A stretch of DNA of 38,181 nt, taken from the IMG/VR virus record IMGVR_UViG_3300034523_000190, positions 1 to 38,181 of that record. The stretch is one strand, 5' to 3'. Within the stretch, counting starts at the first letter, position 1. Each line of letters starts with the position of its first letter. Positions 25,579 through 28,807 of this stretch are shown in pieces. A program made the translations under genes and the position numbers. This DNA is from a virus. The notes below the pieces were generated by a model. It was given only the letters and a program-made list of their open reading frames with translations, had not been told where the DNA came from and did no database searches.

Positions 25579-25971
25579 CTATGCCCAGCCTCGGCTGTGC
25601 TGAAAGATCTCTATGTAGTCGATACTTGCGCGATAGGCATATACCAAACGACCGTACTTTTTTTGGATTGGAATGAAGAAGAAATATGGAACCAACACTC
25701 CCAAAGCCATGGTAGCCAAGAGCAGTATTGATGAGCTGAAAGCTATTCCCGAAATCAATTCTACTAAGAACGTCAAAATGCCTAAGGCCATCCAGCCCAC
25801 TATAGGGTTGAGTATCATTTTTTTACGAGCATCTGACAGACGCTCACGTAAATGAATGAGTCGCTCAGCCACTTGGTCGCGACTTAGGCTCGCCAGATCA
25901 TCCAGGCCGTAGTTATAGATGTCGCCGCCAGCGACTTGACCGACGTTACCGTTGAATGATTGGTTCCCCAT
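25579..25971 (-). CDS. Membrane protein with N-terminal VGQ motif, accessory
   Basis: 130 residues. Residues 6-22 (FNGNVGQVAGGDIYNYG) carry a motif shared with the product of 26623-27219 and with the repressor C-terminus. A charged helix follows (SRDQVAERLIHLRERLSDARKK), then two membrane segments at about 54-76 and 79-98, then a short cytoplasmic tail. The gene is AT-rich. It lies last in the group downstream of the repressor, before the late lysis block. A two-span membrane protein expressed in a lysogen could exclude other phages or act as a toxin-like effector; this is inference. No known family is recognised. Confidence 0.75.
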   Translation of the reverse strand: MGNQSFNGNVGQVAGGDIYNYGLDDLASLSRDQVAERLIHLRERLSDARKKMILNPIVGWMALGILTFLVELISGIAFSSSILLLATMALGVLVPYFFFIPIQKKYGRLVYAYRASIDYIEIFQHSRGWA

Positions 25972-26012: not shown

Positions 26013-26570
26013 TCAGCCTTTGCAGTGGGCTGGTTTAGGCTTTGCAACGACTTCTTTCGTTTCAGGATCTACCGTGTAGACCGTGAGACACTCACGACCT
26101 CCGCCCAGTTTTTTCTTTAATTTCGAATCCATCTCCGAATCAGCCCTCGCTGAAATCACAGGGTCAGCGGATTGTAGACACTCATCCCGCTGTTGTTGAA
26201 ATTGACTAAGCGCATCCTTGATTGAGCCGGGTATCCTTTCAACGCCGTCGTTGTGGGCAGCAGCCAGCTGCGCGCTCCACCAGCTACGAGAAAAGTTGCT
26301 AGCTGCGAAGCAACTGCCAAGTGGTTCAAAAACAGTAGCACCGAACTGTTTTTTTCCTGAATCCACCAGTGAAGAGAAATATTTGCTGTGAGCACTAATG
26401 GTTGCTAGGTCACCACCCTTTAATATGGCAGCACCGTCTATCATTGCTTTATCGAGGGCGTTCATTTGTATCGTCGCTTGCTCCAGCGACTCAGGGCTTG
26501 CTTTTTTAAAAGGCTCCGCATGAGCAGTAAGCGCTACCATTAAAGCGAATAAGCTAAAAGCTCTTTTCAT
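26013..26570 (-). CDS. Exported protein of unknown function, accessory
   Basis: The start at 26570 is chosen because it has AAGGAG eight bases upstream and gives a clean signal peptide (MKRAFSLFALMVALTAHA, cleavage after AHA); a longer frame upstream has neither. The mature protein is about 167 residues, mostly helical, with four cysteines likely to form disulphides in the periplasm. Sequence: SPESLEQATIQMNALDKAMIDGAA, then SCFAASNFSRSWWSAQLAAAHNDG. No family is recognised. AT-rich, and between the two VGQ-motif membrane genes. It could be a periplasmic partner, immunity or surface-modifying protein. Confidence 0.75.
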   Translation of the reverse strand: MKRAFSLFALMVALTAHAEPFKKASPESLEQATIQMNALDKAMIDGAAILKGGDLATISAHSKYFSSLVDSGKKQFGATVFEPLGSCFAASNFSRSWWSAQLAAAHNDGVERIPGSIKDALSQFQQQRDECLQSADPVISARADSEMDSKLKKKLGGGRECLTVYTVDPETKEVVAKPKPAHCKG

Positions 26571-26622: not shown

Positions 26623-27219
26623 TCAAAACCAAATGCCACCAACCAACACGCCTAAGCAAAATAAAGTGGCAGCACTCTGTTTATGCAACACCAGGAACTC
26701 TCGGAGAGTGATGACTCTGGATGCATTATCCGTCGCTTCCGGCTGTCTCATTGGTTGAAAGCGCTGAACAAATTCTAATGTCTGCTGAAGCTGCGATTTC
26801 TGAAGGTTTTTAAGCTGAGTTCGACCAAAGCTTAACTCACAGAAATTATTCATCTCGGCCTTCGCGTCTTTCTCAGCTACCACCCGGAGGACCTTGCCTA
26901 CTAGGCGACGTTTATCAGCCTCTTCTTGCAAAAACTCCAACCTTGTCCTCATCACATTCCGTGCATCAACAAATTGCTCGGCAGTGATCTCGCTAATCGT
27001 AGTTACTCCGAGATGAGCATGAACGGTACGCCAAACGTCCCGAGGGTCATCGCCAAGCTCTTCGCATTTTGCTCGCAACTCATGAAGTTCTTTGCGCTGC
27101 GCAGTGACCAAGCTACGGGATTCGGCTTTGTCTGCGTCCCCCATCTTAATGTTGATACCGAAGTTATTGATATCGCCCTCGGCAACTTGGCCAACACCTC
27201 CCTGGAATTTTTGCCCCAT
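26623..27219 (-). CDS. Tail-anchored protein with VGQ motif and ORF6C-like helices
   Basis: 198 residues from the ATG at 27219, one base after the repressor stop and preceded by AAGGGAAG, so it is probably translated with the repressor. Residues 5-21 (FQGGVGQVAEGDINNFG) carry the shared motif. Residues about 40-95 (RKELHELRAKCEELGDD, WRTVHAHLGVTTISEITAEQF) resemble the helical ORF6C-type domain of phage antirepressor-like proteins, and a second weaker copy may lie near 130-155. The last 20 residues are a membrane anchor (SAATLFCLGVLVGGIWF). Such a protein would sit on the inner membrane facing the cytoplasm. Function unknown. Confidence 0.75.
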   Translation of the reverse strand: MGQKFQGGVGQVAEGDINNFGINIKMGDADKAESRSLVTAQRKELHELRAKCEELGDDPRDVWRTVHAHLGVTTISEITAEQFVDARNVMRTRLEFLQEEADKRRLVGKVLRVVAEKDAKAEMNNFCELSFGRTQLKNLQKSQLQQTLEFVQRFQPMRQPEATDNASRVITLREFLVLHKQSAATLFCLGVLVGGIWF

Positions 27220-27220
27220 C

Positions 27221-27640
27221 TCACTTCTTCCCTTTGCTTCCACCAACGTTGAGTGTCAGGCCCGACTGGTTCACCGATCCGTGAATATATTGGCCAACGC
27301 TTTCAAATGTGTGCTGGGCACCCGTAGGGGGTTGCGAGCCGAGCAACACGCGAAGCGCGTCGTCCTGTCGATCCTCAGGGCTACGTCGGAATTGGTCCAG
27401 GAATAACCTCTCTCTAGTGGACGGAGGAAGAGAACCTCGCAATCCCGTCAGCACGTATTGAACGTCAGCTCCCGCCAAAGCAAAAGCTTCTAGCGCTTCC
27501 ATGCCTGGTGATACGGCACCGGCCTCATATCGACTCCAGGTTTCTCTCGTCACTCCAGCAACCGTACCTGCTGCCGCTTGGGTCAGCTTAAGCCGTTTGC
27601 GCTCTTCTTTAAGTCGCGAAAAAGGTGATGTATCAGTCAC
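27221..27640 (-). CDS. HTH repressor of the prophage (c-like)
   Basis: 139 residues from a GTG at 27640 with AAGGA upstream. Earlier in-frame ATGs would place the start beyond the operator and even inside the divergent gene. An XRE/Cro-type helix-turn-helix spans residues 8-62 (LKEERKRLKLTQAAAGTVAGVTRETWSRYEAGAVSPGMEALEAF). The C-terminus carries FESVGQYIHGSVNQSGLTL at 112-130, similar to the N-termini of two downstream products. It diverges from the early operon, the position of the lysogeny repressor in BcepMu-like phages. No S24 protease domain is present, so induction would not be by simple RecA-driven self-cleavage. Confidence 0.87.
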   Translation of the reverse strand: MTDTSPFSRLKEERKRLKLTQAAAGTVAGVTRETWSRYEAGAVSPGMEALEAFALAGADVQYVLTGLRGSLPPSTRERLFLDQFRRSPEDRQDDALRVLLGSQPPTGAQHTFESVGQYIHGSVNQSGLTLNVGGSKGKK

Positions 27641-27678
27641 AAATAGTCCTTGACTATGTGATCTATAGATCACAAAAT
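27638..27678. promoter_or_regulatory. Lysis/lysogeny switch: early promoter and operators
   Basis: TGTGATCTATAGATCACA (27657-27674) is a perfect 18-bp palindrome. It sits within the spacer of a plus-strand promoter, TTGACT at 27650 and CAAAAT at 27673, 17 bp apart. Next to it ATAGTC-CTT-GACTAT (27644-27658) is a second inverted repeat overlapping the -35 box. On the minus strand, TTGTGT with TATAGA 16 bp downstream could serve the repressor gene. One bound palindrome could thus control both directions. Confidence 0.75.
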
Positions 27679-27724
27679 CATCCACACAAACACTAATCAT
27701 CTTTGCATCACAGGAGCCACCACC

Positions 27725-27937
27725 ATGGCCACCCATGCCAAAGCCCTATCCGCCGACCAAGTGAAAGAAAACTTTCGTCGGGTTGGCAAAACCATTACTG
27801 AATGGGCTACCGAGAACGGCTACACCCGTAACGAGGTGTACCGCGTACTCAATGGCCAAGCGAAAGCCCACTACGGCAAGGCTCACGATATTGCGGTAAA
27901 GCTCGGTCTTAAACCTTCTGCAGCGATGGCAGCTTGA
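27725..27937 (+). CDS. BcepMu gp16-family regulator (Ner-like)
   Basis: A 70-residue product, ALSADQVKENFRRVGKTITEWATENGYTRNEVYRVLNGQAKAHYGKAHDIAVKLGLK, clearly of the BcepMu gp16 family of small DNA-binding phage proteins. It is the first early gene, with AGGAG before the ATG. By position it corresponds to Ner or Cro, probably turning down the repressor and early promoters. Start and promoter are well supported. Confidence 0.9.
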   Translation: MATHAKALSADQVKENFRRVGKTITEWATENGYTRNEVYRVLNGQAKAHYGKAHDIAVKLGLKPSAAMAA

Positions 27938-27973
27938 TGATGACGATCCAGCGCCTTATCGACTGCTTTGGCT

Positions 27974-28216
27974 TCAACCATGCGTGCCCAGCGATTGGCG
28001 AGCGTCTCGCGCCTCAGCTAGCTGACCGCACAGCCACTCAGCTGTCTTCACCGCCTCAAGTTCAAAGGGCCGTTCAGGCCAGCGAGCGGTCCGCAGAGAT
28101 TGCTCAATTTGACCTGGAGCAACCACACCTCCTACTTCAAGAGCAGCAGCAAGACGCAACCAACCCTGAGCCAGGGCATTCACTTGCGCTTCAAGCCTAT
28201 CAATACGGTCGGTCAT
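27974..28216 (-). CDS. Small coiled-coil protein on the minus strand in the early region
   Basis: 80 residues, MTDRIDRLEAQVNALAQGWLRLAAALEVGGVVAPGQIEQSLRTARWPERPFELEAVKTAEWLCGQLAEARDARQ. A heptad-like N-terminus and a conserved-looking WPERPFE and WLCGQLAEA pattern argue for a real protein. AGGA lies eight bases before the ATG. The competing plus-strand frame is histidine- and glutamine-rich and looks like an antisense shadow. It points against the early operon and diverges from the gene at 28328. Function unknown. Confidence 0.6.
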   Translation of the reverse strand: MTDRIDRLEAQVNALAQGWLRLAAALEVGGVVAPGQIEQSLRTARWPERPFELEAVKTAEWLCGQLAEARDARQSLGTHG

Positions 28217-28251
28217 AGCCATGTTCCTGTCAGTGAATGTACCCGAAAATG

Positions 28252-28285
28252 TTGCACCTGGAGTAATCCTTTTGCCTAGGTGCAA
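28252..28285. promoter_or_regulatory. Inverted repeat between divergent early genes
   Basis: TTGCACCT and AGGTGCAA are perfect 8-bp inverted arms separated by 18 bp, between the divergent starts at 28216 and 28328. The spacing suits two half-sites or an operator for a small HTH protein. TTGCAC recurs in a palindrome at 37030. Confidence 0.45.
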
Positions 28286-28327
28286 ACGTTCGATTTGTTT
28301 GGAAGACGCTCTTTTGAGGACATTCCA

Positions 28328-28807
28328 ATGAACCGCCGTCGCTGGAAGAACATTCAGCCAACCTCGCTGCGGCATGGGTTGGAGCTATGCAAAGACTTCG
28401 CGAAAGAAGCCCACAACATGAGCGTCGAGCGCATCGCGGTTGAGATGGGCGTTACCGATCAGTGGACGGTTTACAAGTGGCTCCAGACTGGCCGTATGCC
28501 CGCCAACATGATTCGCCCGTATGAGCGCGCTTGTGGTTGCGACTATGTCACCCGCTGGATCGCGGCCAGTGCCGGACGCTTAACCATCGTCATCCCCACG
28601 GGGCGCACCTGCACAGCCAAGGATATGCAGGCGCTGCAGGAACTGCTGACAACTGCTGCCGGAAAGCTGCTCGCTTTCTATGCCAACAACATTGACGCAG
28701 ATGATGCCCTGGCCGCGATCCAAGCCGCCATGGAGGGGCTTGCCTGGCATCGAGGCAATGTCAGCCAAACCCAAAACCCACAACTTGAACTGGAGGAGCA
28801 GCCATGA
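28328..28807 (+). CDS. Phage HTH-type regulatory protein
   Basis: 159 residues from the ATG at 28328, with GAGGA seven bases upstream. The first half has a helix-turn-helix pattern: LELCKDFAKEAHNMSVERIAVEMGVTDQWTVYKWLQTGRMPANMIRPYERACGCDYVTRWIAASAGRL. The second half is helical (QALQELLTTAAGKLLAFY, DDALAAIQAAMEGL). Similar proteins lie near the start of early operons of BcepMu-like phages. It probably binds DNA; the target could be the adjacent inverted repeat. Confidence 0.75.
   Translation: MNRRRWKNIQPTSLRHGLELCKDFAKEAHNMSVERIAVEMGVTDQWTVYKWLQTGRMPANMIRPYERACGCDYVTRWIAASAGRLTIVIPTGRTCTAKDMQALQELLTTAAGKLLAFYANNIDADDALAAIQAAMEGLAWHRGNVSQTQNPQLELEEQP

Follow-up and report, generated by a model that had tools for sequence, protein, structure and literature searches.

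The DNA analysed here, called the window, is a stretch of 38,181 bp from a virus record and represents a B3-like Pseudomonas transposable phage. Its gene order, with a repressor, a Ner/BcepMu gp16-like protein, a CII-like protein and a transposase, matches that of Pseudomonas phage B3. The repressor gene and the early operon are divergent, with 84 bp between the repressor GTG and the ATG of the Ner-like protein (27725), and an operator-like site is located in the early promoter, as in the layout of Cro/C1-type switches. A ribosome-binding sequence for the repressor GTG, AAGGA, was found by eye at 27651-27647. The features of the region are collected in Table 1.

Table 1. Genes, regulatory sites and motifs of the immunity region and the adjoining genes.
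Feature	Position	Strand	Basis or remark
Repressor, 139 aa, GTG start; P22 C2-like HTH, helical hairpin, disordered tail	27221..27640	-	Pfam, AF2, profile
Ner/BcepMu gp16-like HTH protein, 70 aa; first early-operon gene	27725..27937	+	TIGR04111
O1, 18-bp palindrome, predicted main repressor operator	27657..27674		30.8 bits, top site of the window
O2, predicted second operator, weaker direct copy of O1, 5 mismatches	27624..27641		22.6 bits; shuffled-window maximum 13.7
pE -35, TTGACT	27650..27655	+	Promoter scan, conservation across relatives
pE -10, CAAAAT	27673..27678	+	Promoter scan, conservation across relatives
Candidate pC1 region, GGTACATTCAC	28233..28243	-	Exact in window, L024, L028, Fc02 and B3; promoter role putative
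Repressor C-terminal tail motif, VGQYIHGSVNQSGLTLNVGG	27239..27298	-	Tail/N-terminus comparison, AF2
P0007, 198 aa, encoded by the gene after the repressor; motif at the N-terminus, Flk-like helical domain, probable TM helix at the C-terminus	26623..27219	-	
P0007 N-terminal motif, FQGGVGQVAEGDINNFGINIK	27145..27207	-	Motif comparison, profile
Third gene with the motif, 130 aa; SFNGNVGQVAGGDIYNYG at the N-terminus, followed by hydrophobic stretches	25579..25971	-	Motif profile

The regulators and the loci compared

The HTH domain of the repressor matches the Pfam families HTH_31 (40.2 bits, cut-off 27) and HTH_3 (28.7 bits, cut-off 23), and P22 C2 scores best when the repressor profile is compared with solved chains (E 5e-10). 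The AF2 model consists of a confident HTH domain, a helical hairpin and a tail that is disordered from residue 106 onwards (pLDDT below 50 for residues 106-139). Helix 32-40 was taken as the recognition helix. No C-terminal peptidase (LexA-like) domain was found among the Pfam matches up to E 0.1, which cover only the HTH region, and PADLOC matches up to the same E value were confined to this region as well. The claim of an earlier note on this DNA that the repressor has no protease domain is thus upheld. The Ner-like protein matches TIGR04111 with 90.7 bits (cut-off 34).

Loci for comparison were drawn from IMG/VR, GTDB genomes and phage records, and the locus sets are samples, comprising the best 80 of 244 and the best 80 of 111 matches in two scans. 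A divergent HTH repressor, detected with a profile built here, is present in 185 of 208 Ner loci and absent from 23, with some contigs present twice among the 208. Merging loci with an identity of at least 93% across 130 bp resulted in a nonredundant set of 100, the window included. These loci share descent, and the permutation tests described below remove the effect of kinship incompletely. At the DNA level, matches of the whole 1-kb region to phage records are confined to the leader and ner (11 records, 60-80% identity).

In the phages Fc02 and B3 (Pseudomonas Beetrevirus), the main text of PMC9936078 describes divergent repc and ner genes, an early promoter pE, an overlapping repressor promoter pC2, and an accessory gene that follows the repressor gene and is co-transcribed with it. 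The window has the same divergent layout, but its repressor and operator sequences differ from those of B3 and Fc02. Within its predicted pE spacer, Fc02 has a palindrome of its own, TGGGACTTTGATGTCCCA, with 7 of 9 pairs; the terms 'palindrom', 'binding site' and 'inverted repeat' are absent from the main text of PMC9936078, and 'operator' occurs in its references only. In Mu-like Pseudomonas phages, the repressors and Ner-like proteins are variable, which has been read as different immunity groups (PMC4378225). Among the literature matches listed for operators or immunity of B3- or BcepMu-type phages, no title or abstract opening describes the operator finding reported here.

Early promoter and operators

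The sequence TGTGATCTATAGATCACA is perfectly symmetrical across 18 bp and is unique in the 38,181 bp at up to 3 mismatches, with 0.01 matches expected from shuffles. TTGACT and CAAAAT are separated by a 17-bp gap, so that O1 occupies almost the entire pE spacer, and it extends into the -10 by two bases. The earlier note had placed a perfect 18-bp palindrome in this spacer, and it is found there exactly. The promoter match alone is at chance level (in a 3-kb region, 1 found and 1.7 expected), and pE is called on comparison across relatives instead of the promoter scan alone. Mean conservation in 19 close loci, including the window, is 0.89 for the -35, 0.58 for the spacer, 0.88 for the -10 and 0.89 for the leader; these 19 are the 21 loci of high Ner identity discussed below minus L031 and L050. 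In other close relatives, the -10 reads CATAAT, CATCAT, CAATAT or CATTAT.

In 85 of the 100 nonredundant loci, the spacer of the top-scoring promoter measures 17 bp, a count that is partly built in because the promoter score adds a small bonus for 17. When the symmetry profile is averaged over these 100 loci, its maximum is found 8.5 bases upstream of the -10 and half a base off the spacer midpoint, with a mean height of 4.56 of 9 pairs against a background of 2.30. The next peak, at 7.5 bases, is where the centre of the window's own palindrome falls. At least 7 of 9 pairs are found in the spacer window in 55 of 100 loci, compared to 0-5 of 96-100 loci in ten control windows, with a few alternative centres allowed, while the spacer symmetry is below 6 of 9 pairs in 30 of 100 loci.

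A second site, O2 (GGTGATGTATCAGTCACA), is situated 33 bp from O1 and covers the repressor GTG (27640-27638). A PWM was built from O1 and the site 33 bp off in loci of this recognition-helix type, with 10 shuffled windows as a control; the next best site in the window after O1 and O2 has 11.3 bits. Since the window's own O1 and O2 helped build this PWM, recurrence in the wider set of loci is the better control. A copy of a phage's own operator, with at most 7 mismatches, recurs at -34 to -29 in 53 of 69 loci. In 960 trials with the operator of a foreign phage, a copy was found at these positions 55 times, and at the control positions -50 to -45 and +24 to +29, the own operator is found in 0 of 68 and 2 of 70 loci, respectively. 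In the other 16 of the 69 loci, no O2-like copy passes the 7-mismatch limit at this distance.

The earlier note had proposed another second element, an inverted repeat overlapping the -35 box. This repeat (27640-27648 / 27652-27660) is indeed present in the window, where 8 of its 9 pairs match. Among the four closest distinct relatives, two (L006 and L013) retain it by eye and two (L005 and L012) do not, and the other six nonredundant loci of the same helix type have 4, 5, 6, 4, 2 and 0 of 9 pairs, the last ones of which may be too low because positions were compared at fixed coordinates and indels are possible. As it is poorly conserved beyond two of the four closest relatives, the repeat was rejected as a regulatory element, and on comparative grounds O2 is the better candidate for the second element. 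In the PWM scan of the window, only O1 and O2 exceed the maximum of the 10 shuffled windows. A third copy at 27695-27712 was discarded, since its 7.8 bits are within the chance range and it falls within the leader, which is conserved across repressor types. Mu-type immunity regions have three repressor operators; in the window, only two sites rise above the shuffled maximum.

The start of the repressor transcript may be further away than the start codon suggests. The GTG beside the palindrome agrees with the earlier note, and the very short leader that was derived from it is compatible with the sequence but uncertain given the pC1 promoter of Fc02 and an 11-base motif in common with it. RNA-seq of Fc02, as described in the main text of PMC9936078, suggests that the lysogenic repressor transcript starts at this distal promoter beyond ner. 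The 11 bases GTGAATGTACC are found at the expected pC1 position in 5 of 21 loci scanned for an exact match (the window, L024, L028, Fc02 and B3). As this motif is common to Fc02 and B3, the repressor leader of the window may be long in the lysogen.

Three further elements were observed in this region. The leader at 27700-27724 (TCTTTGCATCACAGGAGCCACCACC) is almost invariant in the 19 close loci irrespective of the repressor type and is a candidate control region for Ner or ribosome binding. An 82-codon ORF at 27974-28222 on the minus strand, starting MAMTDRIDRLEAQVNALAQ, lies opposite 27934-28218 on the plus strand and directly downstream of candidate pC1, where Fc02 has olg1 (superinfection exclusion). 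An inverted repeat at 28250-28290 (GTTGCACCT...AGGTGCAAAC), seen by eye upstream of the CII-like gene (28328-28807), is possibly the site of another regulator.

Specificity of the palindrome

Co-variation between operators and proteins was assessed in the 70 of 100 loci with a spacer palindrome of at least 6 of 9 pairs, the remaining 30 being excluded. Operator similarity follows the similarity of the repressor HTH domains (partial Mantel 0.43, 0 of 999 permutations) and not that of the Ner-like proteins (partial Mantel 0.03, 284 of 999 permutations). Where the HTH domains are at least 75% identical (28 pairs), 0.91 of the operator-arm bases are in common, and where the Ner-like proteins are at least 90% identical but the HTH domains less than 45% (34 pairs), this fraction is 0.36, compared to 0.41 for all pairs. 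Single-linkage clustering into operator families was discarded, because it chained 60 of the 70 loci together.

The same pattern is visible in the 21 loci, the window included, with a Ner-like protein at least 86% identical to that of the window. They have four operator types with one recognition helix each: GTGAT..ATCAC (4 loci), GGTGT..CCCACC (6 loci, with only 5 of 9 pairs and therefore absent from the set of 70), GAGAAC..GTTCTC (4 loci) and GGTATC (6 loci), while the type of the remaining locus, L050, is unclear. In Sapientia aquatica (L207), the Ner-like protein is only 57% identical, yet the recognition helix NRETWGRYE is accompanied by the operator AGTGATCTATAGATCACA. Because the spacer holds the symmetry peak and the operator co-varies with the HTH domain and not with Ner, O1 is very probably the operator of the adjacent repressor. 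This agrees with the earlier description of a compact divergent switch with the main operator within the early promoter.

The -35, the -10 and the leader are conserved while the spacer is variable and the operator types differ, and for this reason specificity DNA appears to be exchanged within a promoter of fixed contacts. From these comparisons, the HTH domain and its operators move between phages together, as a single unit of specificity, and the pE hexamers, the leader and ner stay. The immunity type can thus change inside a promoter while the promoter stays intact. In addition, the 70 nonredundant loci, each pairing an HTH domain with a candidate operator, provide a natural specificity code for small phage repressors, in which, for example, RETWSRY occurs with GTGAT and RE(I/M)W(G/S)(R/K)Y mostly with GAGAAC.

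In Mu-like phages, the switch is where Ner-like proteins act, and the palindrome is located in the ner promoter, so it could be the site of the Ner/gp16-like protein, or one common to Ner and the repressor in a Cro/Ner-type negative feedback. The earlier note had considered the gp16/Ner-like protein as a possible reader, and this part of it is not supported, as operator and Ner similarity are unrelated once the HTH domain is allowed for. Near-identical Ner-like proteins are found with wholly different operators, as in L028 (99%, TGAGAACTTAAGTTCTCA) and L024 (100%, CGGTGTATATATCCCACC), and for a Ner or ribosome site, the near-invariant leader is the stronger candidate, which makes this reading very unlikely. 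A host CRP/Vfr site, which would tie lysogeny to host physiology, is more improbable still. The CRP consensus is TGTGA-N6-TCACA, and the arms TGTGAT/ATCACA equal the consensus arms, but the gap is 8 bp here instead of 6 bp, and unrelated palindromes are found at the same spot in relatives with other repressors. That the symmetry is a mere feature of strong promoters or chance in AT-rich spacers, where palindromes form easily, has a negligible probability, given that ten control windows lack such a signal, that the palindrome sequence tracks one protein domain and that O2 repeats each phage's own motif.

It is highly likely that the region is an immunity switch in which the repressor on O1 and O2 shuts pE, the palindrome is not bound by the Ner-like protein, and the HTH domain and operators form one swapped unit. 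The sites, their geometry, the co-variation of O1 with the HTH domain and the lack of a recognisable protease domain come from the sequence and its comparison with relatives. In the mechanism proposed, a dimer of the short Cro/C1-type repressor would bind O1, filling the pE spacer, and would exclude RNA polymerase, so that ner, the transposase and other early genes would stay off. O2, about three helical turns away, would probably take up a second dimer on the same face of the DNA, possibly in a cooperative manner, and its position over the repressor start codon would probably limit repressor synthesis. This model is supported by the logic of Fc02, in which transcription from pE, beginning at ner, is released when the repressor carries a heat-sensitive mutation (main text of PMC9936078).

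The switch resembles those of P22 C2 and 434-type repressors in its HTH profile and in its 18-bp two-fold operators, the size that P22 operators also have. These phages have two sets of three operators, whereas the window has two operators, and the repressor of the window has a disordered, motif-bearing tail in place of a recognisable self-cleavage domain. The operator switch is well supported and of an already known sort, and the novelty lies in the motif-tagged module described below.

The repressor tail and its downstream partners

A Gly/Asn motif in the disordered tail of the repressor recurs at the N-termini of the products of 26623-27219 and 25579-25971, the latter of which probably has two TM helices, as judged by eye. 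The suggestion of the earlier note that the VGQ motif of the tail might matter gains weight from this recurrence. A motif profile from which the window sequences were excluded gave two strong matches among 537 window ORFs (E about 2e-8), namely the Flk-like protein P0007 and the 25579-25971 product (MGNQSFNGNVGQVAGGDIYNYG...), and the repressor tail scores weakly with it (E 0.041). In 45 of the 100 loci, at least one downstream ORF exceeds the 11-bit motif threshold, applied without E-value control. Eight loci have two or three such ORFs (three each in L032 and L048), with a motif class that agrees by eye with the repressor tail; seven are of the VGQ kind and one, L150, of the VAGRD kind. The matches start within the first 40 residues in 53 of 55 cases. 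By eye, the motif classes are FHGxVGQVAxGDINN, GSGNRVAGRDYxE, NGDVGNVVSGDVTI and FNGxxxGQFxxRDIIN.

Tails and neighbouring N-termini were compared in 86 of the 100 loci, the other 14 having no called neighbour or no repressor of at least 95 aa. The cognate score averages 35.8 compared to 22.8 for non-cognate pairs, and 0 of 2000 permutations reach the cognate mean; a score of 35 is reached by 9.5% of non-cognate pairs, as classes recur across phages. In 43 of the 86 pairs, the score is above the 99th percentile of shuffled N-termini (43 against 32 in the window). The neighbour motif follows the tail when the HTH domain and the neighbour body are allowed for (partial 0.34, 81 loci, 0 of 999 permutations). 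The same partial is 0.66 in the 43 motif-bearing loci and 0.51 in the 22 with a Flk-like body (each 0 of 999), values that may be inflated since these sets were picked by the tail-neighbour score. Given the tail and body, the relation of the neighbour motif to the HTH domain is 0.14-0.16. Homologous Flk-like bodies bear differing motifs in different phages, and L015 has an HTH domain and operator that differ from those of the window with a tail of the same class. By this comparison, the repressor tail and the partner N-termini change motif type together across relatives.

It has to be considered that the likeness is a DNA-level duplication or recombination boundary with no protein function. 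Both motifs lie near each other in the DNA, this region is one of module exchange, and the use of the same codon at identical residues is slightly above expectation and high in single loci (9 of 12 in L016 and L018). However, over 43 pairs the same codon is used 167 of 426 times, where codon usage predicts 149.6, which speaks against a recent duplication; the mean nucleotide identity of the aligned motifs in these pairs is 0.56, and the motif recurs in further ORFs up to about 1.5 kb downstream. This explanation is therefore regarded as rather unlikely.

The partner proteins themselves have few recognisable relatives. P0007 matches the Flk equivalog PRK10715 with 62.7 bits (E 3.5e-17), below the cut-off of 353 and over helical residues 39-183 only. 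It also weakly matches the phage anti-repressor families PHROG 245 (E 1.9e-5) and PHROG 2127 (E 3e-4), with which a role against the repressor would fit. No match to P0007 was found in the phage collection at E 1e-3, Foldseek gave no PDB match to the Flk-like model with an E value of up to 0.001, and when the Flk-like alignment was compared as a profile with solved chains, only weak chains were returned, which were judged unrelated. In PADLOC (up to E 0.1), P0007 and the L024 partner had no match and the L089 partner had one weak match, PDC-M19B (E 0.014), while six partner proteins of relatives had only below-cut-off matches in Pfam. AF2 is neutral on the pairing of the motifs, because it leaves both the tail motif and the N-terminal motif unstructured (pLDDT below 50).

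A matching motif is missing in half of the 86 pairs, among them Fc02 and JBD25, whose accessory gene is a different one and whose tail lacks a matching motif; the motif would thus be dispensable for lysogeny as such. In L028, L049 and L052, which form a group, the operator resembles that of L089, but the tail differs and no motif match is found.

Motif pairs of this kind are known from bacterial amyloid signalling (BASS), families of which were recognised by paired motifs located at the ends of proteins from adjacent genes (PMC8086366, PMC7889193 and PMC12261475). In BASS, the C-terminal motif of one protein matches the N-terminus encoded by the neighbouring gene, and a membrane-helix protein is among the partners (PMC8086366 and PMC7889193); both features are seen here, the first in the 43 pairs above the 99th percentile and the second as a probable membrane helix. 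In contrast to BASS, one partner is a phage repressor, and the membrane protein of the window bears its motif at the N-terminus. Pfam searches with P0001, P0007, P0009 and the six partners of relatives gave no NLR or Bell match, and Pfam may lack a Bell model. The module resembles BASS in how it may work; membership is not claimed, since the NLR is replaced by a phage repressor. In the lambda cI-rexA-rexB operon, the repressor operon of the lysogen also encodes a membrane protein, which is the likeness to the window, and we know of no shared motif there. Among the titles and abstract openings listed for amyloid motifs with prophages or phage repressors, none joins a repressor to such motifs.

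The best lead for the inactivation of the repressor is the tail motif that it has in common with co-oriented, probably membrane-bound proteins, hinting at a dormancy switch that is wired to the membrane. Tentatively, the lysogeny operon may encode a motif-coded membrane signalosome, in which the repressor tail and one to three partner N-termini have amyloid-like homotypic motifs of one class in common. At the membrane, templated assembly could pull the repressor off O1 and O2, resulting in induction without a protease, or a repressor clustered on incoming phage DNA could fire a membrane effector, leading to exclusion or abortive infection. As different phages bear different motif 'colours', such modules would stay insulated. 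The match between tail and membrane protein suggests a way, open to experiment, in which repressors that have no protease domain could be switched. Should the signalling reading be right, this would possibly be amyloid-style signalling in phage lysogeny, which would be notable.

Variation in the partner genes was also observed. In L060, L083 and L089, the Flk-like partner has 326-328 aa with an extra domain after the membrane helix, and separate ORFs near L056 and L086 (167 and 173 aa) resemble this domain by eye. The product of 26013-26570 (minus strand), encoded between both motif-bearing genes, is putatively exported, with a hydrophobic N-terminus MKRAFSLFALMVALTAHA seen by eye, and belongs to phrog_23218, a family with no function assigned in PHROG. 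The partner encoded at L187:2653-3468 (minus strand) appears by eye to hold two motif classes in tandem at its N-terminus, EFQGNVDGGVAGRDIVN and GGNVGAALNVNDASAVHIHV.
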